NCBI GenBank assembly: GCA_921293015.1
Contig: OV121088.1
Span: 8,121,882-8,185,881, forward strand
Direction: 5' to 3'
DNA: 64,000 nucleotides
DNA from: Phorcus lineatus
Taxonomy: Eukaryota > Mollusca > Gastropoda > Trochida > Trochidae
In this document: positions 6,959 to 64,000 of the stretch, in pieces
Layout: every line of letters begins with the position of its first letter
Numbering within the stretch: position 1 is the stretch's first letter
The notes under the pieces: generated by a model
The model's database searches: none
Seen by the model: the letters and a program-made list of their open reading frames with translations, nothing else
What the model was told of the DNA's origin: nothing
Translations under genes and position numbers: made by a program

Positions 6959-7288
<330 letters not shown>

Positions 7289-7444
7289 GTCGGACGTTGT
7301 AACGATTTTGAAGCAGTTGTCAATTCACATTTTTTAATACTTCTTCAATCCAGTTCGGCTTCTTTCCATCTTCAAAAAGATTGACAATTGACTGATCCAA
7401 TTAATCGCCCATCATGAACAAGATAGTTATTTGGCATTTGTGAC
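7289..7444. other. Short spacer, nothing seen
   Basis: No feature recognised between the microsatellite and the diverged dispersed-repeat copy. Confidence 0.4.
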
Positions 7445-16926: not shown

Positions 16927-17553
16927 TTAGTTACAGTTCAATTTAGGGATATATCCCTCAATAAAGAAGCCTTCTTTTATTTTCCTCAGCTCTTCATTAT
17001 CTGTGCGCATTTTGTAAATAGGACAGATTGTGAACTGGGGATTGCAGTTCTTTGCGCATTCATCTATATGTGCGCCCAGGGGTATACATCTATAGTTTGG
17101 TATTTTTATCTGTTGTTTATGCACTCGGACTTTCGCCCTTAATGTATCCCCCGTTTGACCAATATACTCTTCGCAACAACCAGCGCATGTTATTACATAT
17201 ATTAGATTTCTGGAGGCGCAAGACATATTTTCCATTATTTTGAATTTTGAATTATTCCTAAAGGTGAATGAATTTAACTCTAAAATTTTTGGTACAAGTG
17301 CCGCAATTCGGCCTATTACATTTTGTGATCCTTCCACCTAATTCAGGTTTTTGATCTTTAAAGCACGCTTTAGATAACAGTTGTTTCAGGGTTTTGCTCT
17401 GCCGTTTACTGTTTATCATTTGAGTATCTTTTAGAGCGTGTTTTAGTTTTGGACATGCGTCTAGCGCCTGTACATAGTTTTTCACATTTGGATAGATATT
17501 TGGATTGCAGGGGTTAAATGTAGTAACAATAGGTAGGGCTGCCGAATTGTTTT
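16927..17553 (-). pseudogene. Penelope-like retroelement 3' fragment with GIY-YIG endonuclease
   Basis: On the minus strand the sequence enters within a TTFNPCNPNIYPNVKNYV stretch, then RQSKTLKQLL and a CNRPNCGTC zinc-knuckle-like motif. A one-base shift near 17280 moves it to a second frame with NLIYVITCAGC and EEYIGQTGDTLR, the GIY-YIG nuclease signature. It ends with FFIEGYIPKLNCN before a stop at 16927. This order (linker, CC motif, GIY-YIG, short tail) is the C-terminal end of Penelope-like elements. The reverse transcriptase is absent, so the copy is 5'-truncated, as is usual, and also frameshifted. There is no sign of a functional product. Confidence 0.85.
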
Positions 17554-45290: not shown

Positions 45291-45569
45291 ATGGAAGCGT
45301 CCTCAGTAACTCGACTGTTTTTCTTGCTATGCACATCTTGGGCTTGTGCTGCAGTGGAGTATCTACCAAATACGGTGTTGTCTGGGTACGATGTCTCCGT
45401 ATGGAAAACCCTCAACCAGTTCCAGTGTGCGTCGCTGTGTGTGAAGGCAGATATCTGTCTCTCTGTGAACTTTCATCCCGCGAGCGCAGAGTGTGAGCTC
45501 AACAACCACGTGATAGACGAAGACCACCCTGGCACTCCTACAAGAGGGTACATCTATATCGCACCAAAT
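45291..45569 (+). CDS. Exon 1 of a secreted PAN/apple-like protein
   Basis: Encodes the first 93 residues. Residues 1-20 form a signal peptide (hydrophobic core LFFLLCTSWACA, probable cleavage near Ala20/Ala21). Residues 22-93 hold Cys46, Cys50, Cys56 and Cys68 in the spacing of a PAN/apple domain, with a typical CASLC segment and a VNFHPASAEC segment before the C-terminal strand. The exon ends at AAT followed by the donor GTAGGT, in phase 0. Reading on past that donor gives a poor hydrophobic tail and a stop at 45650, so splicing is much the better interpretation. PAN domains bind protein or carbohydrate in secreted and matrix proteins. The partner here is unknown. Confidence 0.75.
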
Positions 45570-46928
45570 GTAGGTATACTCATGTTCTGGTCCTCTTTCT
45601 TTTCCAAAGAATCATTTACTGTTGTTTTTTTTCAACCATTTACTGAATAATGAGAGTCCACAAATGACCTCATGATTTGCATTGATTCTGAGAAACCTAT
45701 TTAACCATCCTGAATATCTATGCCATATCGATTCCTGAATTGAAGTTTCCGCCACACGTTTTGATGTTGATGAGGAAGTTCAGTTTTAATGAGTTGCTCA
45801 AATTTGTTTCAGTTATTTTTCGTTAAAGTATGTCTCATGCCGTGTTTTTTTAAAAGGAAGTATAGGCGATATGATTTCAGAAATAAATTCCGGTTCATGT
45901 GAAAATGAATAAACGAAAAAGACTTTGTTACAGAAAAAATCGAGATGAGAGGGATCCATTAGTGTTTAATTGTTTTTTATACTCGCATCCAAATAAAACA
46001 GTTTACATGTAATATTCTTTTCACACTGTTTCAAAACTAAAGTGATCTTAGAAGAGAACGTTTCTTACAAAAATCTTTAAAATAACTAGTTCATTGAGAT
46101 GAAGAGTGTCAGTCAATATTTTTTGCTAAATGAAATGACTTATTGGTCATATCAAAACGTTTATCATACGTTTGTCAATTGTAAACATATAAATCCCGAC
46201 TTGTTAAAGACGGAAGTTTCCTAGTATTGTTATTAAGATTGAATAATAAAACAGTAAGTATACATCAACTACATCTCACATAACTCTTTTCTAAAATGAG
46301 ATAAACAGTTTCGATCATCGCCACCGATTCGTATTTTCATTATTACTATTTAATAGTCATGTTTGTAATCTGAAATGTAAGTAAACAAACCGAGCATGAT
46401 GCTCTCAACTCTCGTTATTTTATTGAAACATCTCCGATACATCTTACTGAAAGAGAGTACCCTAAGTTAAAGTTTATGAACACTGTCATAGATTAAATTC
46501 ACTTGACATTAGTGCATTTCTTCGTAAACTGTCTGGACGCAGATCCTGTGTCATGCAGACAGCCCGCCATGTTGCATGTTGATGTCCGAGGAAGCGATCT
46601 CGGAAGGGTAGGTAAAAAAAAAAATACGGCGCGCCGATTGGTCTAAATTCTGAAGGGGCGCGGCTTAATGGATCGGTCTATTGATACATTTTGTAAGAAA
46701 CGAGTAAAACATCATTATTCATTAATGGCTAAAACATACTAAAACTGATAATTAACAAACACCAATGTCGATAAAAACGATAATTTGCACTGAGCTTGTC
46801 TGTTGCTTTATGGTTGATGGGCTGATCGTTGAAGTTAACAAAGCCAAAGCTTACTCAGAATCAACTTCGCATGTCTAACAATATTCAATTAGCATAGGAG
46901 GATGGATTTGTAGAAGAAGATGTGTTAT

Positions 46929-47219
46929 TTTCGCTAGGTGTAGCGCGTCCGGCCTCGGATCAAGAGGTCCGCGGTTTGAAACCCGCTAGGGGCTCGGCCA
47001 CGTTGTGTGAACTAGAGAACTGGTATACACGCAGCAATTTGTGGGTTCAATGCTGCTTTCAACAGCTTTCAACGCAGTACAAATCCAGTTGTTGGTCCAG
47101 CCGATTCTCGCAGGTTTCACCGCAATGCAATGCCATATCCAATATTGCAAGCAGCCTAAATATAAATGAAATATTCTTGAAAGCGGCATTTAACGCCAAA
47201 TCACCTAATCTCACCTAGC
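46929..47219 (+). mobile_element. tRNA-derived SINE, second + strand copy
   Basis: Same family as 35775-36065: a tRNA-like head with a diverged A box (TAGCGCGTCCGGCCTCGG), a B box GGTTTGAAACCC, then CTAGGGGCTCGG, CGCAGGTTTCACCGCAATGC and the tail GCGGCATTTAACGCCAAATC. No convincing target duplication. Confidence 0.85.
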
Positions 47220-47528
47220 TAGCAAGCATTTAGATGAACGTGCATCGACGTTTTACCAGACGTTTATATCCAGATAACTTAAATTTCACTCATTTTTATT
47301 TAGAGACTATTTGTTCTTCCCTTGTTGTTAACCCTCTAATCGAGATATATATGTATCATGCGTCTATATAACCGTTTCGTACTTTATTTTCATAGAAAGA
47401 ATAGATTGGTTTGACTTCAGCAAACGTTAAATCATTCAAGGAGATTGATCGATATGTCTAAAAATGATTATATGGTCCGTTTAGGTACACCAAGGGCGTT
47501 CCAAGATTGTTGAATAGGTGCTCTAGGG

Positions 47529-47859
47529 CATCCTGCTACATCAGCGTATTTGAATCCGCTGATCCAGCTCCTTCCATATACCCTGATCTCTTTCGAGCCA
47601 AATCCCTCGTATGGCTGGCGCGGCTTGATGTTCGTGGCTGTGCTCACCTGTTATTGTGTCAGCCAATGAAATGTTGTTATCCAAGGAGCTTGAAGTTACT
47701 CTTTTGAATTTTCATCCGGGTTGTGCCGCTGTAGCTGGATACGAGTCCTCGTATTGGCTGGTTGGAAAGCTAGCGATACGAGGCTTTTGGCCTAAAGGAT
47801 ATCAGGGTATATAGAAGGAGCTCGATCAGCGGATTCAATTACACTGATGCAGCAGGATG
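47529..47859. mobile_element. Small Mutator-like MITE, second copy
   Basis: Left end CATCCTGCTACATCAGCG, right end inverted CATCCTGCTGCATCAGTG, both leading into TGAATCCGCTGATC or its near match. Flanking 9-mers GCTCTAGGG and GCTCTATGA agree at seven positions, consistent with an old 9-bp target duplication. The inner foldback words match the copy at 38114-38374. Length 331 bp, no coding capacity. Confidence 0.82.
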
Positions 47860-48357
47860 GCTCTATGATTGTTTGACAGATGTTTAAAACGTAAGTAGCG
47901 TAGACTTGAGAGTTGATAATGGAGATCCTATACTTTCTATTACATATATTAGATGTTTTAAAAATCGTTCTACAAACCTATATATTCATATTTATATTAT
48001 TCATGTTTTATATGTTTTATATGTACATATTTATATGTACGATGGAGAGCAATATTTACATGTAAACAGATGTAATATATTCACACTTATGACGTCAATT
48101 TAGTTTGCAGTCGTAAGATCATACTGTTCGAAGTGCCGTTTCATATTAGAAGCCCGTTGGTTTTGACATTTGATAAGTGCAAACGAGTACTAAAACGAAT
48201 ACTAAACGTTCTTCCACATAACACAACTTTATCAAACTCTTGAATGATTTTGTATCATCCAGCTTTGGCTCGTTTTTAACAAAACCAGTTACTCGTTTAA
48301 TAAAACACAGTTTTACATGTTAGGTCATATAGTAACCTATATCAATTTCTTCCTCAG

Positions 48358-48457
48358 AAGTCGGAAGAGGCGCTGTCATGTGGGGGACTGTGCTTTATGG
48401 ATGAACTATGTACTCACCTAGATTCAGAGACAACCGCTTGTCTTCCTATGGATGAAG
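48358..48457 (+). CDS. Exon 2 of the PAN-domain gene, cysteine-rich
   Basis: 100 nt, acceptor TTCCTCAG and donor GTAGGT. It adds 33 codons in phase 0 plus one G of the next codon (phase 1). The peptide has Cys101, Cys105, Cys111 and Cys121 within a LSCGGLCFMDELCTH...TACLPMDE stretch, an even number that could form two disulphides or complete the PAN fold. The phase-1 end fits exactly onto the phase-1 micro-exons downstream. The joining of exons is inferred and needs transcript support. Confidence 0.65.
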
Positions 48458-48499
48458 GTAGGTGTTTGCAGACAAATACACATTTAAATGTCTGAACAT

Positions 48500-48790
48500 C
48501 ATCCTGCTCTATCAGCGTATTTGAATCAACAGTGTTCCTTCCAATAGTCGAACTCCTTGAGGCCAAAGCCTCCTATAACTAGATGTATAACAAATCAATG
48601 AAACGGCCATATCGGCAAAACAAGGAAGAGAACCCTCTTGAGTTTGAATATTAGCTTCATGCTCCTTGCACAACCATATTTCATTGGCTAAAAAAGTACA
48701 CGCTTACTATAGGCATAAAGGACAAGCTGTAACCAAAACGAGGACTCTGGGTCGAAGGAAATCATGGCATATATACCCGATTTATTCAAG
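48500..48790. mobile_element. Truncated Mutator-like MITE copy
   Basis: Starts CATCCTGCTCTATCAGCGTA and TTTGAATC like the copies at 38.1 and 47.5 kb, followed by TTGAGGCCAAAGCCTCC and an inner ATCATGGCATATATACCCG. The right end with CAGGATG is missing, so the copy is truncated or badly decayed. Confidence 0.6.
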
Positions 48791-50138
48791 TAATCTTGTG
48801 TAACGTATCAATAACCCAAATCGAAACGGTTACCTGAAAATCTTAACTCTAACTGCTCTTTTAAAACTTTAATTACACCGTGAATATGCCACTCGGTAGA
48901 AAGTGTTATTTTGGTAGAATCGACTTCCTGACTGAAGGATTTCATCAATATCATGGCCAATAGGCCTATGCCTTTGAGATTTTCAGTCCTGGTACTAATA
49001 GTTCCAAAATGGTCGGCTTGTTAACTAGTTTTATGAACATCATCATACAAATTTGATAACTAATGAAACTATCCTATTTTCAGTGCTTATCAGCCTTAAT
49101 TACAAAATATATTAAAACATACATCCATTTTGATTGAGGTAATTATTGACTGACTCATTTTAAGACATATCAAACGGTAAATCCATGCTATCACTCATCT
49201 CTCAGTGCTTGGGACAGTCAATCACAATTTAAAAATATTCACAATTATGTAACTGTTGTATGATACATGTATATTAGCCCATCTTGGAGTTTATTCATGA
49301 ATTGACATCTATTATGACCGTTCATGCTGTTCATATTACGATGCATAAAACACTTAACATTTTACTTATAAGAGAGCCATATTACGTAAAAGTACGTTTA
49401 TTACAAATTAACATAAACGACATTAACTTTGACAACTTACATCAAACTATAGATTATAACGATATCAATTTCAGATAAATAACAAACTATAGAATAAAGA
49501 TAGAGATTTCGGATAAATAAAAAACTATGGAACAAAGCGATCCTGTTGAACGATTATTTTAATAATTTAAAATTTACGTGATGCTTGGTCCGAGATGTCA
49601 ATAATACAATTTAAACTTGCTAGGTTTCAGTTTTTCTTTATCTGTTCGCCCAACACCCAAGGACTAATAAGCCCTATTCACTCGAAATTGCCATGGCACC
49701 ACGGACTGCTTCTTGTCAAAAGTATTGATTATTGTTGTAGATAACCATTGTGTGGTTTGTGAAAAGAATTATCGAACATTTGTCAGGTTTGAAGTTTACG
49801 TTTTATTTCTACAAGACTTACATCATATGATCAATGAGAGCAATTTAATGTTCATTAATGCCTTCTAAGTAATAATTTTTAACTTTCTATCCTTAAAGTG
49901 TGAAAAAAGGTATACCCTAAGAGGGTTATGCTCTCAATTTTCTGTATAGACCAGTTATGTTTTGGATAAGAATAATTCATTATTTCCTTTGAACAACAAT
50001 TAAATACTGATATTTTAATTTGTGCATAGTAACATGAAAAGAATTATTTTTCATATACATTATTAATATGGAAAAGTTGATATCGGATTTCAAATTGGGG
50101 TTGCTATCGAACATTTTACCCTTGCAACACCACATATA
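48791..50138. other. Intron 2 sequence, nothing recognised
   Basis: AT-rich intronic sequence between exon 2 and the micro-exon array. No further micro-exon was found by looking for the GGGGACGG core. Confidence 0.45.
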
Positions 50139-50163
50139 TATATATAATTAAAAAAACGTATAA

Positions 50164-50232
<69 letters not shown>
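50139..50232. repeat. TA/TG microsatellite
   Basis: Long TA dinucleotide tracts interrupted by ATTAAAAAAACG and a short TGTGTGTG stretch. They abut the left end of the MITE at 50231. Confidence 0.9.
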
Positions 50233-50234
<2 letters not shown>

Positions 50235-50632
50235 ACATACTTCACATAGTCGTTTGAAGAATCATTTTAATCCGATACTAGTATTTCGTCAATAGTATTG
50301 ACTCATCAGGGATGAAACGATATGATCGTTAACATCGCATTACAAGCGTTTTTATAACAAAATATACGTACAATGTACAAGGATATATTGTAAATTATGC
50401 TAATCAGGTGACATCATGGTTCTTCCTTGTTGGTCTTCTGATTGACACAATCACTCTCTTATGAGTTTACCCCTTGAGCAATATGTTAATGTGACATAAT
50501 CCCTTTTGTTTTTAAATAGCTCAATTGTAGTTAGAGATATATGTCAGTGATTTAAGGGTAATCATCTCATTGTTTATTTAGTGAGGGTCTATAGGTGTCC
50601 TTCATTGACACGACTATGTGAAGTATGTTATA
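50231..50632. mobile_element. MITE-like element, shares a module with 18523-19001
   Basis: Inverted 22-bp ends contain TAACATACTTCACATAGTCG on the left (50231-50252) and the reverse complement at 50611-50632. The left 115 bp (TACTAGTATTTCGTCAATAG, TGACTCATCAGGGATGAAAC) is the reverse complement of 18640-18780. No coding capacity. Confidence 0.8.
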
Positions 50633-50832
50633 TTTAATCTATATGTGACCTTGCGTTTGAACCAATTCAACTTTTCATATATATATATATATATATATAT
50701 ACATTGTGTATACGGGACTATCAATGGGTAACTAATGCTTATGCTAGAAAATATTTTATTTTGTATATAATGTACCAATATTTAAAATATCCATGCCAGT
50801 CCCTGTCACATACGGTTATTGAATTAATAGAG

Positions 50833-50944
50833 AATACTAAACAACGTTCAGTTTAATAACATATTTATGAAACGAGTGGATGGTATACCAATACTATCCA
50901 CGAGTTTCATAAATATGTTATTAAACTAGACGAAGTTTAATATT
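50833..50944. repeat. Foldback repeat of the ATACTAAAC type
   Basis: The left arm ATACTAAACAACGTTCAG to AACATATTTATGAAACGAGT is mirrored by CGAGTTTCATAAATATGTTA to CGAAGTTTAATAT. It forms the left part of a segment of about 1.15 kb that interrupts the array's intron homology (about 50830 to 51990). The 12-mer TTATTACACTCT at 50949-50960 is inverted at 51988-51999, so that segment may itself be a transposon. The minus-strand open frame 51361-51753 inside it is unrecognised. Confidence 0.7.
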
Positions 50945-52130
50945 TTATTTATTACACTCTTTAAATTAATAATATAAAATGAAAATCATGTTTACTCTCA
51001 ATTCTCGTAGTTGTGCGTAGGAATACAATTCTTACAATCGACGCATAACGTCATGAGACTGCATTGGAGAAATAGGTCAAGAGTAAGTCCGTTTACAGCT
51101 TTAATTTTAAACAATACAAATGGAACGCACTCATTTGTGTTTTGGTCACTATGAACACAAATTGCCGAGTTAACAAAACATAACATCAGTCACTGAATTA
51201 CTTGAATGAATGTTACTGAATTATGTGAATGAATGTCACGTGATCGTGACGTCAGTGGAATGTGAGTTTTGAAGCGCGATTCATTTAGTTTGAGTTAGTA
51301 TCGGTGGGAGGAACACTGTCCTTGTTGTTGCCGATGAAGTTAACATTGATGACACAGTTGCTAACGGAACCACCGAAGATCGAGTTGATTGATCGAAATT
51401 CGGAATCTAGAATCTACCGAAATCGGCAGGGATGACCTTGCCCGATCTACTGGCGAAAGCCCGCTTGACCTGGATTCGGAGATCATGTTTACATTTGAAG
51501 AAGATGGACGTTGGTTAATAATTGTGCTGATATCTCTGAGCTGTTTCTTGGACAACTGAGAGTAATTATTTATGCTTTGCACTAATTTGCATGATTTGAT
51601 TGGGAGGAATGTTACTCTCCGACAAAGTTTGGACCTAACAATTTCGGCCTGAGTGGTTTGTGAGACGCTCATACAATCAAGCTTGGTTAACGGGTATTTT
51701 CTAGCTAAATAAAATACAAAGAAAGATGAAATATGATGGTTTTGTTTGATCAAACTTATTTATAAACAGCTAAACATGTTTTAAGAAAGAATTGTACTTT
51801 TATCTCGTATTTTATCAAACTTTAGAGAACAATATTTTTGACAGTCGCCATTTTCATTTACATCATCACTGATAACTTGTCATGTGACTACAGGAAAATA
51901 GTTCCGGATGCAATCGCTTTCACGTGCAATGTTTCACAACAGTGTTGAATAACATGTCATTGTTTCACGACTGTAGTATCTCCAACGAGAGTGTAATAAC
52001 TAAGTATATTACCTTTAAAAGAGTGTTGTGATGTACAATTTCAAATGCATTTTATTTTCAAATATAGATACAAATGGCAATAGTTTAAAACAACTTACTT
52101 TTTTATACAGTTTAATACAATGGCGTTTTA

Positions 52131-53585
52131 TGCCCCAGTCACACTTACGTTTATGAACGTAGTGATGCAGAACGTACTTTAACGCAGTTAACTGTACTTA
52201 AGCCCAGTTATCCGTAGTTATACTTAGTTATCCGTGCTCAAAACGTAGACATAGACGTGAGACAAACGTAGTTTGTGATTTAACTTTTGGACATGTTTAA
52301 AGTTTAGCATTTCCGAACTACGTTTCCAGAAACGTAGTTCAATGTAGTTGGACGTAGTTAATTGAAAATGTGAACTTAGTTCATCGTAGTTGAACCTAGT
52401 TAAGAACGTTCTTTAACGTAGCACAACTTTTCCACGATTTACTACACTTTACTAGGTATCCGAGTACGTTTAAGTACATTCTAGAACGTTGTACTACGTC
52501 TGACTACGTTAAACTACAATAAACTACACTACTTTCATCTGAGTTGAAGAACGTTTTAGTACACAAAACTAGGTATTAGTACGGTTAACTACGATATCAA
52601 ATACGTGTAAACTACGTTTTGGTACGTTTCGTATTTAGACTTTGACGTTTAAGTACGTTTCCCTACATCTAACTACACTTAAGTAAGTATAACTACGTTG
52701 AACTACGATAAACTACGCCTAACTAGGTAGATTTATTTATTAGTACCTTGTGTCACAAGTGAGTGAAACACCTGGTATGCATTTTAACACTGTTCATTTC
52801 ACAACTGAGAGAGGATGAGTGGAAGGAAGGTGAAAATGATACAGCATTTAGCTGCTATCAACAGAGAAATGATATGTCATAGAGCTCAGGATGGGCCTCA
52901 ACAAATTCAAATGCCTTAACTTCCTGATCTTCAGTCAGTTTTAAAGCCGATCGTCTGCTCTGTGTGACCTTTTAGTTGGGTCATCCATCGTAGTAGGCGC
53001 TTGGGGAATATTGTCCTCTGTCACATCTGATGTTCCTTCGTCAGGATTGACAGAAATGACCGTCGTTTCAGGAATATCTCTTGCGGCTTGATTTGAATCA
53101 GAAGGTGGGGGGCGATTTTTTCTGCCTCTCGTTTTACCCATAGTTGAAAAAATTAACTAACACTCTGTTAGCTTGACAATTAAGAGAAAGAATGAAATAC
53201 ATAAACGTGTGTCTTTATATACCCTACCACTGAAGTGCCGTGATTTACCCTACTTTAACGTACTTTGACGTACCTAAACGTGTTTCAACGTAGTTCAACC
53301 TACTTAGTTGTACTAACAAACGTTCTTAAATGTAGATCAACGTGGTTAGACGTAGCCGAACGAAGCTAGTAAGTTGTTCAATGAACGTAGTTATCCGTTG
53401 TTAAACCTAGTAAAACGTACTTATATGTACTTAATCGTACTTACACGTAGTGAATGAACTTATAATGAAACGTTGTTTTACGTAGTTACTAAAAATGCAC
53501 TCATTTTCGGCACGTTAGCGGTTTTGTGGCTACGTTCAATGAACTACGTTTAACTAAGTAAATGAACGTAAGTGTGACTCCCCCA
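52131..53585. mobile_element. PIF/Harbinger-like DNA transposon with 10-bp subterminal array
   Basis: The ends read TGCCCCAGTCACACTTACGT and, inverted, TGGGGGAGTCACACTTACGT, each flanked by TTA (52128-52130 and 53586-53588), the 3-bp duplication typical of PIF/Harbinger. Removing it joins intron-unit sequence on both sides, so it inserted into an array intron. Both subterminal regions (about 52145-52735 and 53225-53560) consist of degenerate 10-bp repeats of the ACGTAGTT type. A decayed MADF-like gene lies between them. No transposase is left, so it is non-autonomous. Confidence 0.85.
52858..53141 (-). pseudogene. MADF/Myb-like protein fragment of the Harbinger-like element
   Basis: The minus-strand frame from 53141 starts with a basic MGKTRGRKNRPPP stretch and an acidic low-complexity region. 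A shift near 52955 then continues into another frame with LKLTEDQEVKAFEFVEAHP and ELYD, the look of the first helix of a MADF or Myb-like DNA-binding domain, before a stop at 52858. PIF/Harbinger elements usually encode such a protein beside the transposase. The domain call rests on a short stretch and is tentative. Confidence 0.5.
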
Positions 53586-53808
53586 TTAGAAGCTTATTTT
53601 CAAAACATGAACAACACAATGTCGAAATATTTTATATGTTAAAGTCATGGATCTTTATCACAGTCATCATGCTCAATTTTGACTTGAAGGTACCTGTCTT
53701 GTCTTAAGATTCACCACACCGATACAAGTAGTTGTTGAAGAAGGTCAAACAGCCCAAAAATCAATTTAATATGTATCACTTTTCTTAGATATTTTATATT
53801 TTCCTTCG

Positions 53809-53831
53809 GTGCACCAGCACATTTGCAACAG
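53809..53831 (+). pseudogene. Decayed micro-exon (copy 1)
   Basis: The sequence GTGCACCAGCACATTTGCAA-CAG before a normal GTATGTTT donor corresponds to the 3' part of the micro-exon. Seven bases of the GGGGACG core and the AG acceptor (here TTCCTTCG) are gone. The next usable AG would give 14 nt and break the frame, so I expect it to be skipped. Confidence 0.7.
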
Positions 53832-54501
53832 GTATGTTTAAAAAGTAAAACATCCTCATCTACCAAAAAAAACTTTTGGATAAGGGGGTATATATTGGTA
53901 CCTAGTGCTAGAAACTATTGCATTTTGTTTATAGTGCATCACTGTTTCAAATAATCATGACAGTCACGTTCACACACAGTTCTTCAATTACTAATTGTAT
54001 TAACTTTAAAACTTGGGTGTAATGTACAATGTATATTACAAGTGCATGTATTTTTCAAATATAAATTCAAATGACAATCGCTTAATACAACTTACAATTT
54101 TTAACTCTCCATTATGAAAGTAAGCTGTCGTTTTACAAGCTAATGATCAGATCACATACATGTATAAGTCCCGACAACACACAGTGTCAGTTACAACTAT
54201 ATTATATGTTAATGTCATGAATCTTTATCACAGTCATCATAATCGAATTTTTTATTTGAGATAACCTGTCCTTCAAAATAAATTACTGGCAATCATTGTA
54301 AGTTAATCAAAAGCATTTGTCGTCTCAGCTCAACATCTAATTGTTTACATTGTATTTAAATATTATAAAAATTTGTAAATAAATATTTATTGTCTTAAGA
54401 TTCACCACGCTGATATCAGTACATTTTTAAAGAAGTTAAATGATTTAAAAAATCCTTTTCAATGTTTATCATTTAACTTTCATATTTCCTATTTTCTTCA
54501 G

Positions 54502-54531
54502 GTGGGGACGGCACCAGCACTGTTACAACAG
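54502..54531 (+). CDS. Micro-exon 2, decapeptide GGDGTSTVTT
   Basis: Acceptor TTTTCTTCAG, 30 nt, donor GTATGTTTAG. Phase 1 in and out: the last G of the preceding exon plus GT gives the first Gly. First intact copy of the array. Confidence 0.75.
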
Positions 54532-55192
54532 GTATGTTTAGAAAGTAAACTATCTTCCTCTAAAAATACGTTTCGCATAAGTTTGTATATCTGGGTACCT
54601 AGTGCTAGAAACTATAGCATTTTGTTTATAGTGCATCACTGTTTTACATACCCATGACAGTGCTTGTCACAAACAGTTTTTCAATAAATACCTTTATTAA
54701 TCTAAAGCAGTTGTGTAATGTACATTGTATTATACAAGTGCATGTTATTTTCAAATATGAATTCAAATTACAATAGTTTAAAACAACTTACAATTTTTAA
54801 CTCTCCATTATGAAAGTAAGCTGTCGTTTTACAAGCTAATGATCAGATCACATACATGTATAAGTCCCGACAACACACAGTGTCAGTTACAACTATATTA
54901 TATGTTAATGTCATGAATCTTTATCACAGTCATCATAATCGAATTTTTTATTTGAGATAACCTGTCCTTCAAAATCAATTACTGACAAACATTATAAATT
55001 TATCAAAAGCATTTGTCGTCTCAGCTCAACATCTAATTGTTGACATCACATGCAAATATTGAAAAAAAATATATATATTCATTGTCTTAATATTCACCAC
55101 GCTGATATTAGTACATAGTTGAAGAAGTTAAATGAGTTAAAAATCATTATCAATGTTTATCATTTAACTTAGATACTTCCTATTTTCTTCAG

Positions 55193-55222
55193 GTGGGGAC
55201 GGCACCAGCACTGTTACCACAA
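55193..55222 (+). CDS. Micro-exon 3, GGDGTSTVTT with altered 3' base
   Basis: Acceptor TTTTCTTCAG, donor GTATGTTTAG. The exon ends in ACAA instead of ACAG, which weakens the donor and changes the first residue of the following repeat from Gly to Ser. Confidence 0.72.
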
Positions 55223-55471
55223 GTATGTTTAGAAAGTAAACTATCTTCCTCTAAAAAAAACGTTATACATAAGGATGTATGTCTGGGTACATAGTGCTAG
55301 AAACTATAGCATTTAGTTTATAATGTATCACTGTTTTACATACCCATGACAGTGCTTGTCACAAACAGTTCTTCAATAATTACCTTTATTAATCTAAAGC
55401 AATCGTGTAATGTACATTGTATTATACAAGTGCATGTTATTTTCAAATATAAATTCAAATTACAATAGTTT

Positions 55472-56275
55472 CATCCTGTCTCAGGGCAAGACGTATAGCT
55501 GACGCTCCACTCTTCTTGCCCTGGGTGAAAACCCCAGCAATAACTTCGCGCCGTAACCCATGATTCAGCCAATCATATACTTTTATCGCGATGGCGTGCG
55601 ATTAAATTTCAGCCAACCAAAGAGAGCCTCTCGAACAGGAGTTGGCTTTCGCTCTTACGCTAAATGGCAACGTCCATATTTAAACAAAGAAAGTATTTTA
55701 ACCGATCGATCATGGTGATATTGTCGAGTCCAAATTTGCAATTCTGGTTAGTTTAATACAACAAATCATACATCCAGTTTTAAGAGATCGGTTTGATTTT
55801 CCACCACTAATCTCAATACCTTATCGTGGTGGTTTGAGTGGTCCAGAGACCCCTAGAGTTATGCCAGCCGGAGGTTACATGCTCCTGGCAGGGGCACCCA
55901 AGCTCGTCGGTTAGAAGTCAGACCAAATTTGAGTGGTTCTAAAACCTCTTGTCTATCTCTCACAATGCCTTTCATTCCGTCTTTTCCCTTATTCTTTCGA
56001 TCCTCTTTTGGGTGCTTGTCATCCACGTGTTTTGTAACTGAATTTTGTTCAAAACACGTTAATCCCAAACTCAATCACTCACTCACTCGGTTTGAAGTTA
56101 AAGGAATGGGCGCTGCCATATTAAATTGCCGACTCGCCTTCCAAGCGCAGTGATTGGCTGATTATTTTTAGAAAGTTTGTAGGGAATAGGACACGGCGCG
56201 AAGTTTTTGCTGGGGTTTACACCCAGGGTATGAAGAGTGGAGCGTCAGCTATACGTCTTGCCCTGAGACAGGATG
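55472..56275. mobile_element. Non-autonomous Mutator-like element, 9-bp target duplication
   Basis: Perfect 44-bp terminal inverted repeats beginning CATCCTGTCTCAGGGCAAGA, extended imperfectly to about 92 bp through CCCTGGGTG and AACCCCAGCAA to ACTTCGCGCCGT. CAATAGTTT flanks both sides (55463-55471 and 56276-56284). The 9-bp duplication and long inverted ends fit the Mutator superfamily. At 804 bp it has no convincing coding region; the open frames at 55859-56153 are not transposase-like. Identical arms point to a recent insertion, in the intron between micro-exons 3 and 4. Confidence 0.93.
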
Positions 56276-56646
56276 CAATAGTTTAAAACAACTTCCTTTT
56301 TTAACTCTCCACTATGAAAGTAAGCTGTCGTTTTACAAGCTAATGATCAGATCACATACATGTATAAGTCCCAACACAACACAGTGTCAGCTACAACTAT
56401 ATTATATGTACCTGTCCTTCAATATAAATTTCTGGCAATCATTGTAAGTTAATCAAAAGCATTTGTCGTCTCAGCTCAACATCTAATTGTTTACATTGTA
56501 TTTAAATATTATAAAAATTTGTAAATAAATATTTATTGTCTTAAGATTCACCACGCTGATATCAGTACATTTTTAAAGAATTTAAATGTTTTAAAAATCA
56601 TGTTCAATGTGTATCATTTAACTTAGATACTTCCTATTTTGTTCAG

Positions 56647-56676
56647 GTGGGGACGGCACCAGCACTGTTACAACAG
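56647..56676 (+). CDS. Micro-exon 4, decapeptide (G/S)GDGTSTVTT
   Basis: Acceptor TTTTGTTCAG, donor GTATGTTTAG, 30 nt. The first residue is Ser if joined to micro-exon 3 and Gly if micro-exon 3 is skipped. Confidence 0.75.
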
Positions 56677-57341
56677 GTATGTTTAGAAAGTAAACTATCT
56701 TCCTCTAAAAAAAACGTTATACATAAGGATGTATGTCTGGGTACATAGTGCTAGAAACTATTGCATTTAGTTTATAATGTATCACTGTTTTACATACCCG
56801 GGATAGTGCTTGTGACATACAGTTCTTCAATAATTACCTTTATTAATCTAAAGCAGTTGTGTAAAGTACATTGTATATTACAAGTGCATTTTATTTTCAA
56901 ATATGAATTCAAATTACAATAGTTTAAAACAACTTACTTTTTCTAACTCTCCAATTTGAATGTAAGCTGTCGTTTTAGAAGCTAATTACCAGATCACATA
57001 CATATATAAGTACCAACACAACACAATGTCGGCTACAACCATTTAATATGTTTAAGTCAAAGATCTTTATCTTAGTCATCATGATCCACTCTTGACTTGA
57101 GATTTCAAATAAATTAATGTTAAACATTGTAAGTTGACCAAGACCATTTGTGGTCTCAGTTCAACATCTAATTGTTTACATCACATACAAACATTGACAC
57201 ATTTTGTAAATAAACATTCATTGTCTTAAGATTCACCACACCGATATTAGTACATTGCTGAAGAATTTGATAAAAGAAATGACAAAAATAATCATTTTCA
57301 ATGTGAAGCCTTTAATCTTAGTAGTTTCATATTTTATTTAG

Positions 57342-57371
57342 GTAGGGACGGCACGAGCACTTTTGCAAGAG
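57342..57371 (+). CDS. Micro-exon 5, variant decapeptide GRDGTSTFAR
   Basis: Acceptor TTTTATTTAG, donor GTATGTTGAA, 30 nt. It carries two Gly/Thr to Arg changes compared with the consensus and marks the switch from long to short units. Confidence 0.72.
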
Positions 57372-57612
57372 GTATGTTGAAAAAGTAAAACATCTTCATC
57401 TACAAGATGCATTTTGTTCATAGTGCATGCATCACTCTTTCAACATTAAAATGTTTACGTAATATCTAATCATTGACACATTTTTTAAATATTTATTCAT
57501 TGTCTTAAGATTCACAACACCTATACAAGTTGCTTATTGGAGAATTTCAAATGCCAAGAGTAAGCATTTTTAATGTGTATCCCTTTATCGTCGCTATTTT
57601 ATATTTTGTTAG

Positions 57613-57642
57613 GTGGGGACGGAACCAGCACTTTTGCAACAG
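57613..57642 (+). CDS. Micro-exon 6, decapeptide GGDGTSTFAT
   Basis: Acceptor TTTTGTTAG, donor GTATGTCTAA, 30 nt. First member of the three-unit block A. Confidence 0.75.
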
Positions 57643-57898
57643 GTATGTCTAAAAAGTAAAACATCTTCATTTACAAGAAAAACGTTGGGCATAAGAGGGT
57701 ATATCTGGGTACCTAATGACAGAAACTATTGCATTTTGTTTATTGTGCGTCCAATCAGTGAAACATTTTGTATATAAATCTTTATTGTCTTAAGATACAC
57801 CACACCGATATAAGAACCATAATGGAGAAGTTCAAATGCCAAGAATAAAAACGTTTTAGTGTGTAACCTTTAGCTTAGTTATTTCATATTGTGTTAAG

Positions 57899-57928
57899 GT
57901 GGGGACGGAACAAGCACTTTTGCAACAG
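57899..57928 (+). CDS. Micro-exon 7, decapeptide GGDGTSTFAT
   Basis: Acceptor TTGTGTTAAG, weaker than its neighbours, donor GTATGTCTAA. ACA AGC codons replace ACC AGC without changing the peptide. Second member of block A. Confidence 0.72.
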
Positions 57929-58215
57929 GTATGTCTAAAAAGTAAAACATCATCGTCTTAAAGAAATAAAATGCTGCATAAGGGCGTATATCTGGATACC
58001 TAGTGTAACAAACTATTGCATTATTCATAGTGCATCACTGTTTCGTCATTTAATTGTTTACATTGTATCAAATCATTGACACATCTTGTAAATAAATATT
58101 CATTGTCTTAAGAGTCACAACACCTAAAAAAGTTGCAAGTTGAAGAAGTTCATTTGCCAAGAATAAGCATTTTTAATGTGTATCCCTTTATCTCAAGTCT
58201 TTTATATTTTTTTAG

Positions 58216-58245
58216 GTGGGGACGGAACCAGCAGGTTTACAACAG
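58216..58245 (+). CDS. Micro-exon 8, decapeptide GGDGTSRFTT
   Basis: Acceptor TTTTTTTAG, donor GTATGTTTAA. Arg replaces Thr at position 7. Third member of block A. Confidence 0.75.
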
Positions 58246-58534
58246 GTATGTTTAAAAATTAAATCATCTTCGTCTAAAAGAAATAAAATGCTGCATAAGG
58301 GCGTATATCTGGGTACCTAGTGTTAGAAACTATTGCATTTTGTTGATAGTGCATCACTCTTTCAACATTAAAATGTTTACGTAATATCTAATCATTGACA
58401 CATTTTTTAAATATTTATTCATTGTCTTAAGATTCACAACACCTATACAAGTTGCTTATTGGAGAATTTCAAATGCCAAGAGTAAACATTTTTAATGTGT
58501 ATCCCTTTATCGTCGCTATTTTATATTTTGTTAG

Positions 58535-58564
58535 GTGGGGACGGAACCAGCACTTTTGCAACAG
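58535..58564 (+). CDS. Micro-exon 9, decapeptide GGDGTSTFAT
   Basis: Acceptor TTTTGTTAG, donor GTATGTTTAA. Exon identical to micro-exon 6 and 922 bp downstream of it; first member of block B. Confidence 0.75.
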
Positions 58565-58819
58565 GTATGTTTAAAAAGTAAAACATCTTCATTTACAAGA
58601 AAAACGTTGGGCATAAGAGGGTATATCTGGGTACCTAATGACAGAAACTATTGCATTTTGTTTATTGTGCGTCCAATCAGTGAAACATTTTGTATATAAA
58701 TCTTTATTGTCTTAAGATACACCACACCGATATAAGAAACATAATGGAGAAGTTCAAATGCCAAGAATAATAATTTTTAGTGTGTAACCTTTAGCTTAGT
58801 TATTTCATATTGTCTTTAG

Positions 58820-58849
58820 GTGGGGACGGAACAAGCACTTTTGCAACAG
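58820..58849 (+). CDS. Micro-exon 10, decapeptide GGDGTSTFAT
   Basis: Counterpart of micro-exon 7, 921 bp downstream, with the same ACA AGC codons but a better acceptor (TGTCTTTAG). Second member of block B. Confidence 0.75.
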
Positions 58850-59136
58850 GTATGTCTAAAAAATAAAACATCATCGTCTTAAAGAAATAAAATGCTGCAT
58901 AAGGGCGTATATCTGGATACCTAGTGTAACAAACTATTGCATTATTCATAGTGCATCACTGTTTCGTCATTTAATTGTTTACATTGTATCAAATCATTGA
59001 CACATCTTGTAAATAAATATTCATTGTCTTAAGAGTCACAACACCTAAAAAAGTTGCAAGTTGAAGAAGTTCATTTGCCAAGAATAAGCATTTTTAATGT
59101 GTATCCCTTTATCTCAAGTCTTTTATATTTTTTTAG

Positions 59137-59166
59137 GTGGGGACGGAACCAGCAGGTTTACAACAG
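59137..59166 (+). CDS. Micro-exon 11, decapeptide GGDGTSRFTT
   Basis: Counterpart of micro-exon 8, 921 bp downstream, same Thr to Arg change. Acceptor TTTTTTTAG, donor GTATGTTTAA. Confidence 0.75.
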
Positions 59167-59453
59167 GTATGTTTAAAAATTAAATCATCTCCGTCTAAAA
59201 GAAATAAAATGCTGCATAAGGGCGTATATCTGGGTACCTAGTGTTAGAAACTATTGCATTTTGTTCAAAGTGCATCACTGTTTCAACATTTAATTGTTTA
59301 CATTGTATCAAGTCATTGACACATTTTGTAAATAAATATTCACTGCCTTATGATTCACTACACCTAAACAAGTTGCACATTGGAGAATTTCAAATGCCAA
59401 GAATAAGCATTTTTAATGTGTATCCCTTTATCTCAAGTCTTTTATATTTTTAG

Positions 59454-59483
59454 GTGGGGACGGAACCAGCACGTTTAAAACAG
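59454..59483 (+). CDS. Micro-exon 12, decapeptide GGDGTSTFKT
   Basis: Acceptor ATTTTTAG, donor GTATGTTTAA. Lys replaces Ala at position 9. The following intron holds the 4.2-kb DIRS-like element a few bases after the donor. Confidence 0.72.
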
Positions 59484-59825
59484 GTATGTTTAAAGTGTGG
59501 AATTAATTTGTTAATTACTGTTTAAATTTACAGTTCAAGTCGCTATCTGGCATTAATGTTTTATTGCCTTATTGTTGGTCACCTCTCTTTGACCGTAAAG
59601 TTATCAGCCGGCCTAGGTCAAGCAGCACCTTCCCAGGGTTCAGGGGAATGGAATCTACCCCCAGGTTGGGGGGGGGCAAGAAGTGATGGCGGGAAAAGAC
59701 TGACCAATAGCAGGCTCCCTTTTGGTACCAGAGTTTCTCGGTACGCACTACAGTCAGTCGTGCTTGAGACCCCATGCCGGCAGCAATCATTTTTAGTTGT
59801 TCCCAATCTTTTAAAAAACTTAACT

Positions 59826-60830
59826 ATGTCTAACCAAGAAGAAACCGTCCAGTTGGATTTCTCAACATGGGCAAAAGGCATGGGCTTATCGGAGACGACG
59901 ATTTCCAAGTTACTTGATAACGAACTGGACTTTGTGTCGCTTCAATATCTCGAAGAAAGTCATATCGAGACTTTCGACATCAGCCTTGGCCAGAGTTTGG
60001 CACTGAAAGGCGCCGTGGCGTTCCTACAAGGAAAGGTGGAAAATAAGGTGCAGCAGGCGATCCAGGACCAAACAGCCAACCTGACGCAGGCTATTGCAAA
60101 CATGGAGGCATTGTCGTCAGGAGCCCCGTGTGACGCCTTGGTCAACACACCCCAGGCCCCATCACTGACGTCAGGAACTCTGCCAAGGATTGACCAGGAC
60201 CCAACAGTGTTTCTCAAGGTCCAAAGAGGTGAGAAACCTTTCGAAATCATGGACTTTATTAAGCCAAGTTTAACGGCAAATTCGGAGCAAGTGGTTTCGT
60301 CCGACAATGGATCGCGTTTGGTTCTCCAAGTAGGCCCCAAACGCCCAAGCCTTCATAATGTCAGTATGGATCAGTGGGGGGCATCGAACTTTCGCATCAT
60401 GCATGAACTAATGAGGCGGAACAAGCTGTCAGAGACTGGTGCGTCCCAATATATGGCATATTCTGTTAAGGTGTTCGAGCTGGCAGCGCAATACGACTGG
60501 GTCAGTGTGCTCCTGTATGACCAGGAGTATCGACACCTGCAGGCCAATTACCAGTTCCCCTGGGGAGCGGACTCCCAGCACCTATCAACGGTGATGCTAA
60601 AACCTAAACATCCAAGTAATGGGCTGCTAAATCGACCGCATCATAGCCAAGGAATTCACCACCCTGGCAGACGACCACAGCGACCAAGGGAGGTGTGCCT
60701 GCTCTTCAACATAAATCAGCAGGGGTGCAAGTTTGGCCAGGCCTGTAGATTCCAGCATGTATGTCTACAGTGCGGGGAGTCCCACTCTCAGCTTCACCAC
60801 TCACGGGAGCAGCAGCCAAGAAACCAGTAG
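59826..60830 (+). CDS. DIRS-like gag protein (open reading frame 1)
   Basis: 335 residues from an ATG at 59826 (MSNQEETVQLDFSTWAKGMG). The frame is open back to 59556, but the upstream part looks like leader. The N-terminal 60-70 residues resemble a SAM-like helical bundle (LSETTISKLLDNELDF). A Gln-rich helix follows. The C-terminus (about 60692-60770) has a C-X9-C-X5-C-X3-H zinc finger followed by CLQCGESH. The role is expected to be RNA packaging. The frame appears intact and overlaps the pol frame by 70 nt in a different register. Confidence 0.75.
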   Translation: MSNQEETVQLDFSTWAKGMGLSETTISKLLDNELDFVSLQYLEESHIETFDISLGQSLALKGAVAFLQGKVENKVQQAIQDQTANLTQAIANMEALSSGAPCDALVNTPQAPSLTSGTLPRIDQDPTVFLKVQRGEKPFEIMDFIKPSLTANSEQVVSSDNGSRLVLQVGPKRPSLHNVSMDQWGASNFRIMHELMRRNKLSETGASQYMAYSVKVFELAAQYDWVSVLLYDQEYRHLQANYQFPWGADSQHLSTVMLKPKHPSNGLLNRPHHSQGIHHPGRRPQRPREVCLLFNINQQGCKFGQACRFQHVCLQCGESHSQLHHSREQQPRNQ

Positions 60831-62493
60831 ACCCCACGGACCACAAGTTCCCCAGTAACCCTTTAACAGCAGCGTTCAAGGAGTGGTCGGTGGAATTAGA
60901 GAACGATACTGATAAGGACTTTATCCTCGAGGGCATATTAGACGGTTTTCGCATTGTGAACACAAATTCGGAATTTGAGGATGTTGAAATTCAAAATTAT
61001 GATTCTGCTACGTGCAGGGACCACCGCGGTAAGGTAGAGGATCAGATCTTAGTTGAGATTGACGAGGGTAATTATGTAGTGTCGGATGTCAAACCCCGTA
61101 TTGTAAGTGCGCTAGGGGCGATCCCCAAACAGGATTCCAGTGACATCAGACTAATACATGATTGTTCCCGTCCAGCAGGTAAGGCAGTTAATGATCATAT
61201 AGAGATTGATAAACAGAAGTTCCAATCAATTCACGACGCAACTAAACTAGTAAAAGCAGGTTTTTACATGGCTAAGGTGGACTTAAAGGCAGCATATAGA
61301 TCCGTTCCTTTACATCCAGACTGTTATCCAGCTACAGGGCTGAAATGGAAATTTAAAGGTGCAAAAAATGCTACTTATCTTTTTGACACTAAATTATGTT
61401 TTGGCAGTAAGGCGGCACCTGGTATCTTTCATAGAATAACTCAAGCAGTCCGTCGCATGATGGCTCGCAGAGGTTTGATACATTAGTGGTTTACTTGGAT
61501 GATTTTCTGGTGATAGGTGAATCGCGTGAGCAGTGTCAATCGGCGCTGAACTGTCTTCTTCGACTGTTACGAAAACTAGGCTTCTCTATTAATTGGAAGA
61601 AAGTCATTGCTCCAACTCAGATTATTACATTCCTTGGTATCGTTCTCAATTCCACAGACCTAACTGTGGAACTTCCAGCAGGCAAAATAGCAGAACTTCA
61701 GCATCTCTTGGAGCAGTTTTCAAGGAAAAAGCGCGCTACAAAACGACAACTCCAGTCGTTGGCAGGAAAATTAAATTTTGCAAGTACTGTGGTCCGTGGT
61801 GGTAGATGTTACCTCCGTAGAATAATAGATACTATGGCAAATCTGAAGCAAGCAGAGCATAAAGCAGTGCTCGGGGATGAATTTCGTCGTGACCTGGTGT
61901 GGTGGCAACGATTCCTCGAGGGTTTTAATGGCAAATCGTTCTTTCTGGACGACAAGCGGGCAATAACCCTTCATACAGATGCATGCAATGAGGGGTGTGC
62001 GGGCCTGATAAAAACGGATTGGTTTTATGTCAACTTCTCTCAGGACTTTCCGCAGGCAGCTGGGTTTCACATAAACAACAAAGAAATCCTTGCAGTATTA
62101 TACTCGGCTCGGAGATGGGCCTCACTCTGGCGCAATGAACGGGTGTTTGTTTATACGGACAATATGACGGCAAAAGCAGCTCTTAATAAAGGAACTTCGA
62201 CAAACCCGAATACCATGAGAGCATTAAGAGAGCTGTTCTGGTTGTCATCCAGATATAACTTTTATATCATAGCGGTGCATTTACCAGGATGTCTCAACAC
62301 AATGGCAGACCTGCTATCTCGAATGCACCGGGTTACCAATCTATTTAGAGTAAGCTCGATGATGGTAGGTTTGCCGGGTCTCCACGCTTTACTTCCTACC
62401 ACGCTGGGTAATCATCTTTCTCAAAAAACACTTTTGTTTCTCATTCGACAGGTACGAATGTGGACCTCGAAACAGAATTGGACGCAGAACTAG
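60761..62493 (+). pseudogene. DIRS-like pol: reverse transcriptase and RNase H, frameshifted
   Basis: The first part (60761-61486) has DIRLIHDCSRPAG, the motif A region MAKVDLKAAYRSVPLHP and the LCFGSKAAPGIF motif B. A single-base shift near 61470 breaks the frame just before the catalytic YLDD (61492-61503), which lies in the second part (to 62493). That part carries RNase H residues in HTDACNEGCAGL, NNKEILAVL and VYTDNMTAKAAL, and the NTMADLLSR tail usual in DIRS. All catalytic motifs are readable, so the copy is young apart from the break. Confidence 0.88.
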
Positions 62494-63365
62494 CTGAGTT
62501 TCGGGCCTCGACCTTCGCAGACGGCACCAAAAAAGACATGTGCAACTCATATTATTATTTATATTACTATTACTATTATAAAATCTGCATTTCTCTAAGC
62601 TACCAACCAGTACCTGCATCGCCTATCATCGTCGCAAGGTATGCTACCTTTCTTGCGAGAACACTAAAATATTCATCTGTGAGGCAATATCTGAACATAG
62701 TCCAACTATTGCATAAAGAGTGTGGTGTATATAGTCCGATGGAGGGCAATTATCTTTTGCAATCGACCCTGACAGGGATTAAACGAGTGAAAGGGGACAC
62801 ACAGAACAGGAAACTGCCTATTATGCCGACCATCCTTCTCCAAATATTCCAGCATTTGAGGATGGACAGTGACGAAGATATTGTGTTCTGGGCCATTTGT
62901 CTCACGGCTTTCTACTCCTTGCTGAGAAAGTCAAACCTGCTCCCAATGTGTTCCTTGGACTACCATCCGCTCCGACATCCGCAACGCTCCGACTTCACAT
63001 TTTACAACTGGGGGGCTATCATGTTGGTGAGACATACAAAGACAATCCAATTTCAGGAGCGTGTCCTTCAGCTTCCTCTCCCATACCTCCCGGGGCACCC
63101 CCTGTGTGCCGTATCAGCCCTTTTTAACGCATTTAATCTGTGTCGGGGTACCCCGGTAGGTTCACCAGCTTTCCTTCAACGGGGAGCGGGTAATACATGG
63201 GCACCAATGTTGTATCCTGTGTTTTTGACAAGACTCAAGTCGGTCCTTTCTTCCCTAGGGTATTCTAGTGACCTCTTCTCAGGTCATTCTTTCCGCCGCG
63301 GGGGTGCTTCATGGGCACTCCAAGCAGGTATCCCGGGGGAGTGGATAAAGCTTTGGTTTACCTAG
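62460..63365 (+). pseudogene. DIRS-like tyrosine recombinase, C-terminus disrupted
   Basis: A separate frame overlapping the end of pol. Box-A Arg is visible in FYSLLRKSNL, a Lys in VRHTKTIQF and the H-x-x-R motif in HSFRRGGAS (about 63283). Right after EWIKL the frame runs into WFT and a stop. The expected catalytic-tyrosine region is missing or out of frame, and the following conserved tail (to about 63437) lies in another frame, so a small deletion is likely near 63350. A TAT/TAC microsatellite near residues 27-37 gives a run of Tyr inside the N-terminal domain. Confidence 0.8.
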
Positions 63366-63680
63366 AAGTGCCGTTACAATCCCGCGTCGCAGCCATGACG
63401 CAATTAGTAAAATCACTCCCCCTTGTGCAACTATGATTTTCCCCAATTACTTCAATAAATCCTACCTCTACTTTATAACTTCGTACTGGGGTATTTGGGA
63501 GCTTTGTTACATTATATTACAAAACTACATTTCATTATTATTGCATAATTGGTAATTGATATTTATCTAATAATATCTCATTATTATTAATTACTCGCCT
63601 AATTTGGCATTGCTTCATGTTATGTAATAAAAGCTCTCATTTGTCCCAAAACCTATTGCTTCTGTCTTTTCTTGTAAAGG

Positions 63681-63968
63681 TATAATTTAAAATTAAATCA
63701 TCTTCGTCTAAAAGAAATAAAATGCTGCATAAGGGCGTATATCTGGGTACCTAGTGTTAGAAACTATTGCATTTTGTTCAAAGTGCATCACTGTTTCAAC
63801 ATTTAATTGTTTACATTACATCAAGTCATTGACACATTTTGTAAATAAATATTCACTGCCTTATGATTCACTACACCTAAACAAGTTGCACATTGGAGAA
63901 TTTCAAATGCCAAGAATAAGCATTTTTAATGTGTATCCCTTTATCTTCGCAATTTCATATTTTGTTAG
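63681..63968 (+). other. Remainder of intron 12 after the DIRS-like insertion
   Basis: Matches the intron after micro-exon 11 almost base for base (CATAAGGGCGTATATCTGGG, TATTCACTGCCTTATGATTC), which confirms that the DIRS-like element split one array intron. Confidence 0.85.
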
Positions 63969-63998
63969 GTGGGGACGGAACCAGCACTTTTGCAACAG
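63969..63998 (+). CDS. Micro-exon 13, decapeptide GGDGTSTFAT
   Basis: Acceptor TTTTGTTAG, 30 nt, with GT of the donor as the last two bases of the window. The array clearly continues to the right. Confidence 0.72.
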   Translation, partial: MGTEPALLQQ

Positions 63999-64000
63999 GT

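Follow-up and report, generated by a model that had tools for sequence, protein, structure and literature searches.

A predicted PAN and C-type lectin gene of Phorcus lineatus with a tandem array of 30-nt micro-exons

We analyzed a stretch of 64,000 nucleotides (nt) from the vetigastropod snail Phorcus lineatus (contig OV121088.1, positions 8,121,882 to 8,185,881), hereafter the window, together with the sequence that follows it on the same contig. From its sequence, the locus that begins at position 45,291 is judged to be a gene with a PAN domain and a C-type lectin domain, with an array of 30-nt micro-exons as internal linker. We regard it as fairly probable that the gene encodes a secreted protein in which the micro-exons are largely spliced in and vary in number, which would give a linker of variable length.

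Gene structure and the micro-exon array

The exons are listed below. Coordinates above 64,000 are extended coordinates, which run on past the window edge into the same contig (stretch L010).

45291..45569, + strand: exon 1; start codon, signal peptide (by eye) and PAN_1; phase-0 end, donor GTAGGT
48358..48457, + strand: exon 2; 33 codons plus 1 nt, four Cys; phase 0 to 1; CAG acceptor, donor AAG followed by GTAGGT; frame continuous with exon 1
53808..53831 (limits approximate), + strand: m0, decayed micro-exon; 7-nt deletion, acceptor AG lost; recognized from alignment and context
54502..54531, + strand: m1, GGDGTSTVTT
55193..55222, + strand: m2, GGDGTSTVTT; its last base is A, so the codon split with the next exon begins with A; weakest donor
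56647..56676, + strand: m3, GGDGTSTVTT
57342..57371, + strand: m4, GRDGTSTFAR
57613..57642, + strand: m5, GGDGTSTFAT
57899..57928, + strand: m6, GGDGTSTFAT
58216..58245, + strand: m7, GGDGTSRFTT
58535..58564, + strand: m8, GGDGTSTFAT; DNA identical to m5
58820..58849, + strand: m9, GGDGTSTFAT; DNA identical to m6
59137..59166, + strand: m10, GGDGTSRFTT; DNA identical to m7
59454..59483, + strand: m11, GGDGTSTFKT
63969..63998, + strand: m12, GGDGTSTFAT; donor GTATGT from 63999, running past the window
64213-64242 (extended): m13, GEDGTSTFAK
65068-65103 (extended): s1, 36 nt, phase 1-1
68529-68564 (extended): s2, 36 nt, phase 1-1
70348-70510 (extended): C1, lectin-domain exon
71177-71394 (extended): C2, lectin-domain exon

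When these exons were joined in silico, a single open frame of 407 codons was obtained, which passes from the PAN domain through the cysteine-rich exon and 13 decapeptides to the lectin domain. Exon 1 ends in phase 0, exon 2 leads from phase 0 to phase 1, all subsequent junctions up to C1 are in phase 1, and C1 joins C2 in phase 2. The Pfam family PAN_1 matched residues 19-77 (E = 1.7e-9, 37.8 bits, curated cut-off 21.4), and the N-terminus of the protein looks signal-peptide-like by eye. A preliminary description of this DNA had proposed a PAN-like gene with a signal peptide, whose array follows the phase-1 end of a cysteine-rich exon, and had placed a 3' domain beyond the window; our results agree on each point. 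Past the window edge we found one more micro-exon, the 13th, then s1 and s2 (each 36 nt long and in phase 1-1, and proposed from splice sites and frame alone) and two exons of a C-type lectin domain (Lectin_C, residues 296-405, E = 2.4e-10, 41.5 bits, curated cut-off 22.6). Between s1 and s2, a 12-nt phase 1-1 segment with AG and GT flanks (extended 66595-66606, L010:3095-3106) is a possible extra micro-exon outside the gene model.

Read through its possible donor, C2 ends with ELGR and a stop codon, and it may be the last exon of the gene. For the 3' domain scan, the three + strand frames of L010, L011 and L012, with X at stops, were compared with Pfam. L010 gave Lectin_C; L011 gave RVT_1 and HTH_Tnp_Tc3_2 above cut-off, and HTH_29, Atrophin-1 and DUF3915 below it; the frame translations of L012 gave zero Pfam matches. 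In about 22 kb 3' of C2 on the + strand, all Pfam matches above cut-off were thus to transposon families. A micro-exon matrix scan found no further micro-exon in L013-L015, and no direct repeat of at least 60 nt was found in L011.

At E = 1e-3 the PAN and cysteine-rich exons matched only this locus in the genome (two matches; 55 candidates scored), and the PAN part of the gene is taken from this sequence search to be single-copy. Among solved structures, these exons matched only the coagulation factor XI heavy chain (E = 0.24 and 0.27). The structure prediction for exon 1 was too poor (pLDDT 43) and was left unused. The solved structure closest to the lectin domain by sequence was Lymphocyte antigen 75 (7jpt; whole-chain E = 5.3e-13, best single stretch 4.8e-4), which has ten listed stretches resembling a C-type lectin domain, whereas there is one such domain here. 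Two N-glycosylation sequons, NQT and NLT, were seen by eye in the lectin domain (C1-C2, extended 70348-71394). By eye, this domain also has an additional Cys at the position of a Gly in many C-type lectin domains, which might form an intermolecular disulphide.

The array begins after the phase-1 end of exon 2. As described before, the window holds 12 intact 30-nt segments (54502-63998), and in 12/12 the 30 nt lie between AG and GT, all in phase 1-1. The donor is GTATGT in the 11 copies that have the whole donor within the window, and likewise in m12 once the downstream sequence is added. The decapeptide DNA pattern, with at most two mismatches, matched 12 times in the window, where 0.07 matches were expected, and 0/100 shuffles reached 12. 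An exact 21-nt core pattern had nine matches across the 957.8 Mb genome, all nine in this array; the remaining copies differ from it by at least one base and were missed by that search.

The single decapeptide pattern proposed earlier, GGDGTST(V/F)(T/A)T, held overall, but the 13 copies are not uniform. At position 2, 11 copies have G, one has R and one has E; at position 7, 11 have T and two have R; at position 8, 10 have F and three have V. Position 9 varies most, with A in seven copies, T in five and K in one, and at position 10 there are 11 copies with T, one with R and one with K. The linker is Thr/Ser/Gly-rich, as had been stated, with S or T at 54 of its 130 residues.

Conservation and turnover of the array

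All 13 intact copies were aligned together with m0, the decayed one, each with 120 nt of flank; m0 was excluded from the counts. Conservation among the 13 intact copies is exon-specific. The mean pairwise difference was 0.118 in the exon and averaged 0.299 over 139 intron windows, none of which was as low. No gapped column occurred in the exon; 2/139 intron windows were also gap-free. When the recently duplicated m8-m10 were left out, the exon still differed less than the intron windows (0.129 vs 0.332). Forty of the 78 pairs had a distal downstream identity below 0.75; in these, mean identity was 0.867 in the exon, 0.740-0.759 in the upstream intron and 0.630 in the intron 11-60 nt downstream. 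Repeat finding free of exon-similarity bias recovered the same units. At the codon level, the GGDGTS core had a pN/pS of 0.15 (10 copies). A minisatellite without a coding role was rejected as the leading explanation, because the 30-nt segment and its donor are the most conserved parts.

Two further features within the array bear on its turnover.

57428..58349, + strand: three-exon block m5-m7; its tandem duplicate is 58350-59270 (m8-m10)
59495..63680 (ends approximate), + strand: retroelement in the m11-m12 intron, shortly 3' of the m11 donor; Pfam RVT_1 and RT_RNaseH; flanks compared with the neighbouring unit

The two blocks are identical at 910 of 921 aligned positions (98.8%), with one gap. 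Judged by this identity, the block duplication is recent and the array is still changing. Local copies were also found for s1 (76% over 96 positions, with its acceptor AG lost) and for C2 (74% over 134 positions). The locus thus gains and loses exons, and its copy number would therefore probably vary between individuals.

The retroelement has a further open reading frame (62412-63365) without a Pfam match, which by eye resembles a tyrosine recombinase, as in DIRS-like elements. Another element, about 800 bp long and with inverted ends, occurs twice, once within the array (55472-56275) and once between s2 and C1 (extended 69313-70113, L010:5813-6613). Its termini recur as another start and end 2.0 kb apart (extended 95688-97690).

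Rfam and tRNA scans of the window gave no matches, and the following features were noted elsewhere in it.

404-2122, + strand: long single open frame of a rhodopsin-family G protein-coupled receptor (Pfam 7tm_1, 6.5e-71)
6855-7384: long (GA/TC)n repeat, a source of spurious long frames
14241-14666, + strand: DDE_3 transposase fragment (6.7e-9)
16930-17337, - strand: GIY-YIG match, below its cut-off
About 52100-53560: ACGTAGTT-like short repeats, abundant to either side of a small core; by eye, perhaps a foldback element

Splicing potential and competing explanations

For 12 of the 13 micro-exon donors, the pairing energy with U1 was -6.3 kcal/mol or lower; among the region's 968 GT sites, true donors included, 5.4% reach -6.0 kcal/mol. 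The acceptors have 8 to 11 pyrimidines per 12. The earlier claim that any subset of micro-exons can be included without a frame change was borne out: every subset is in frame, no subset junction creates a stop, and omission of the entire array is also in frame. Between copies, 8/12 introns are 214-289 nt long; the m11-m12 intron, with its retroelement, is 4.5 kb long and divides the array. If s1 and s2 are constant, the 13 cassettes would allow 14 linker lengths and 8192 exon combinations.

These results could be explained as follows. A 30-nt phase 1-1 linker exon would have been copied along with its introns, between the PAN and lectin domains, to reach 13 intact copies. Splicing would bring a good share of the micro-exons or more into the mRNA, in numbers that vary. 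The PAN and lectin domains would then be separated by a Thr/Ser/Gly-rich spacer whose length, between 0 and 130 residues, changes ten residues at a time. Unequal exchange among near-identical units would make the genomic copy number differ between individuals as well. The spacer is most likely a flexible arm, possibly O-glycosylated, that would set the reach, multivalency or aggregation of the secreted lectin. Its role may lie in mucus or surface defence, or in the shell matrix as in abalone perlucin. We suggest, with considerably more reserve, an immune or barrier lectin whose arm is both splice-tunable and copy-number-variable. The last four decapeptide positions vary, partly to Arg or Lys, while the GGDGTS core is kept; individual snails would therefore differ in repeat number, repeat chemistry and isoform mix.

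Three other explanations were weighed; because a fixed linker or a silent array is compatible with two genes, they are not mutually exclusive and their probabilities need not sum to one. The micro-exons could be all, or nearly all, constitutive, with one protein carrying a linker of about 130 residues whose length varies by genomic copy number only. The 12 donors that pair well with U1, the pyrimidine-rich acceptors and the short inter-copy introns would suit such a fixed linker. However, the weak donor of m2 and the 4.5-kb retroelement intron that splits the array favour uneven inclusion, and 30-nt exons are often skipped in general; we consider the fixed linker unlikely. The array could also be mostly silent, with exon 2 joined to s1, s2 or C1; the repeats would then be a tandem repeat without coding role, whose splice-like ends were carried along as it spread. 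In-frame skipping of the whole array, the decay of m0 and the count of mutational events in the core given below, which is not significant alone, are in line with this. It seems the least probable of the three, because the 30-nt segment is more conserved than all intron windows, AG and GT are retained in 13/13 intact copies, and the core shows more synonymous than amino acid differences. Last, the PAN-array part and the lectin part could belong to two neighbouring genes, with the array ending in an unseen 3' exon. The introns of 825 to 3425 nt that separate m13, s1, s2 and C1, and the way in which s1 and s2 were proposed, leave some room for this. However, all exons join in one frame with consistent phase, and the roughly 22 kb 3' of C2 held only transposon families above cut-off on the + strand, so two genes appear quite improbable.

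Several observations weigh against the account that we prefer, a linker varied by splicing. It is drawn from genomic sequence, and the splicing of the micro-exons into mRNA is inferred. The m2 donor pairs with U1 at only -1.6 kcal/mol. The 13 copies were chosen by exon similarity and m0 was left out, so that the absence of indels is partly a result of selection. When m4, m11 and m13, which have rearranged flanks, were removed as well as m8-m10, the exon was still lowest in the remaining seven copies (0.105), but the best intron window was close to it (0.108), and 27/139 intron windows had no gapped column. The pN/pS of the last four codons was 1.60 (10 copies). By hand count, the core needs a minimum of three synonymous and two nonsynonymous events (P = 0.11, not significant alone), and for this reason constraint on the core at the amino-acid level is suggestive, not decisive. 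Some local exon copies, namely m0 and the copy of s1, have decayed. In sugar-binding C-type lectins, the Ca2+/sugar-site motifs are EPN or QPD, plus WND; they mark the sugar-binding members and not the domain family. Here they are replaced by DPD and WFP at the positions taken as equivalent by eye, which makes sugar binding by this domain uncertain. A search of a protein collection, which may hold few animals, with a query containing three of the thirteen repeats found no homologue among 745 candidates at E = 1e-3, and the gene accordingly has no cross-species support from it. A slight point against a role in the shell is that a paper on the abalone shell proteome uses neither PAN nor apple as a word in its main text (PMC6003135).

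Comparison with known systems

The preliminary description knew of no mollusc counterpart, which has to be corrected. Perlucin of the abalone Haliotis laevigata is a C-type lectin with cDNAs that have 0, 5 or 8 ten-residue C-terminal repeats, and this variation was attributed to alternative splicing (PMC4019660). The same source reports that the repeat was detected in nacre protein by mass spectrometry, and that repeat number alters CaCO3 precipitation and aggregation of the recombinant protein. Perlucin is abundant in the abalone shell proteome, and a transcriptome gave more than 60 perlucin-like matches (PMC6003135).

By taxonomy, Phorcus lineatus and abalone are both vetigastropods, and in each a C-type lectin, here predicted to be secreted, has ten-residue repeats; the variation was seen in perlucin and is predicted here. 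The perlucin repeat, DSLHANLQQR, is C-terminal to the lectin domain (PMC4019660), whereas the repeat GGDGTST(V/F)(T/A)T lies N-terminal to it with one exon per repeat. PMC4019660 does not use the words exon, intron or genomic in its main text, and one exon per repeat is not stated there. Our gene also has a PAN domain; none is mentioned for perlucin in the portion of that paper on which we draw. We rejected membership in perlucin, since the order of a C-type lectin domain followed by C-terminal DSLHANLQQR-type repeats is absent here and both repeat sequence and position differ. Perlucin is nevertheless, in our analysis, the best functional guide for this gene, though not its family.

The RTX calcium repeat is a GGxGxD nonapeptide. 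An RTX-like calcium repeat was rejected by eye for the decapeptide, which has the wrong length and lacks Asp at position 6.

Alleles of human IgG3 carry different numbers of hinge exons, and the length of its O-glycosylated spacer depends on that number (PMC10328927, PMC10800522). It is a mechanical analogue, a secreted recognition protein in which exon number sets spacer length; however, the variation there is allelic and there is no homology. The IgG3 hinge exons are few and longer.

The likeness to schistosome micro-exon genes (MEGs), put forward in the preliminary description, holds for the mechanics: MEGs have many short symmetric exons, and in-frame skipping is possible (PMC5825161, PMC8293314). 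MEG products are mostly secreted (PMC5825161, PMC8293314), which for the gene described here is predicted from the look of its N-terminus. The likeness does not extend to composition. About 80% of MEG coding sequence is in symmetric exons of 6-36 bp (PMC5825161), but small symmetric exons make up 462 of 1222 nt (38%) here, and membership in the MEGs was rejected on this difference. Near-identical tandem units between PAN and lectin domains also set our gene apart. MEGs have been described as apparently restricted to schistosomes (PMC8293314).

Among the titles and abstract openings listed, which for several searches cover part of the hits, we found no PAN and C-type lectin gene with a micro-exon array. 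Variation in the repeat number of a vetigastropod lectin is already known from perlucin (PMC4019660); the gene described here differs from it in repeat sequence, repeat position and partner domain. The locus gives a clear one-exon-per-repeat structure for a lectin with a potentially variable linker, in the snail subclass of perlucin, and it raises the question of whether the abalone perlucin repeats also correspond to micro-exons. It could serve as a model for repeat number set both by splicing and by unequal exchange. If our explanation is true, in-frame micro-exon cassettes like those of schistosomes can arise independently through tandem exon duplication.

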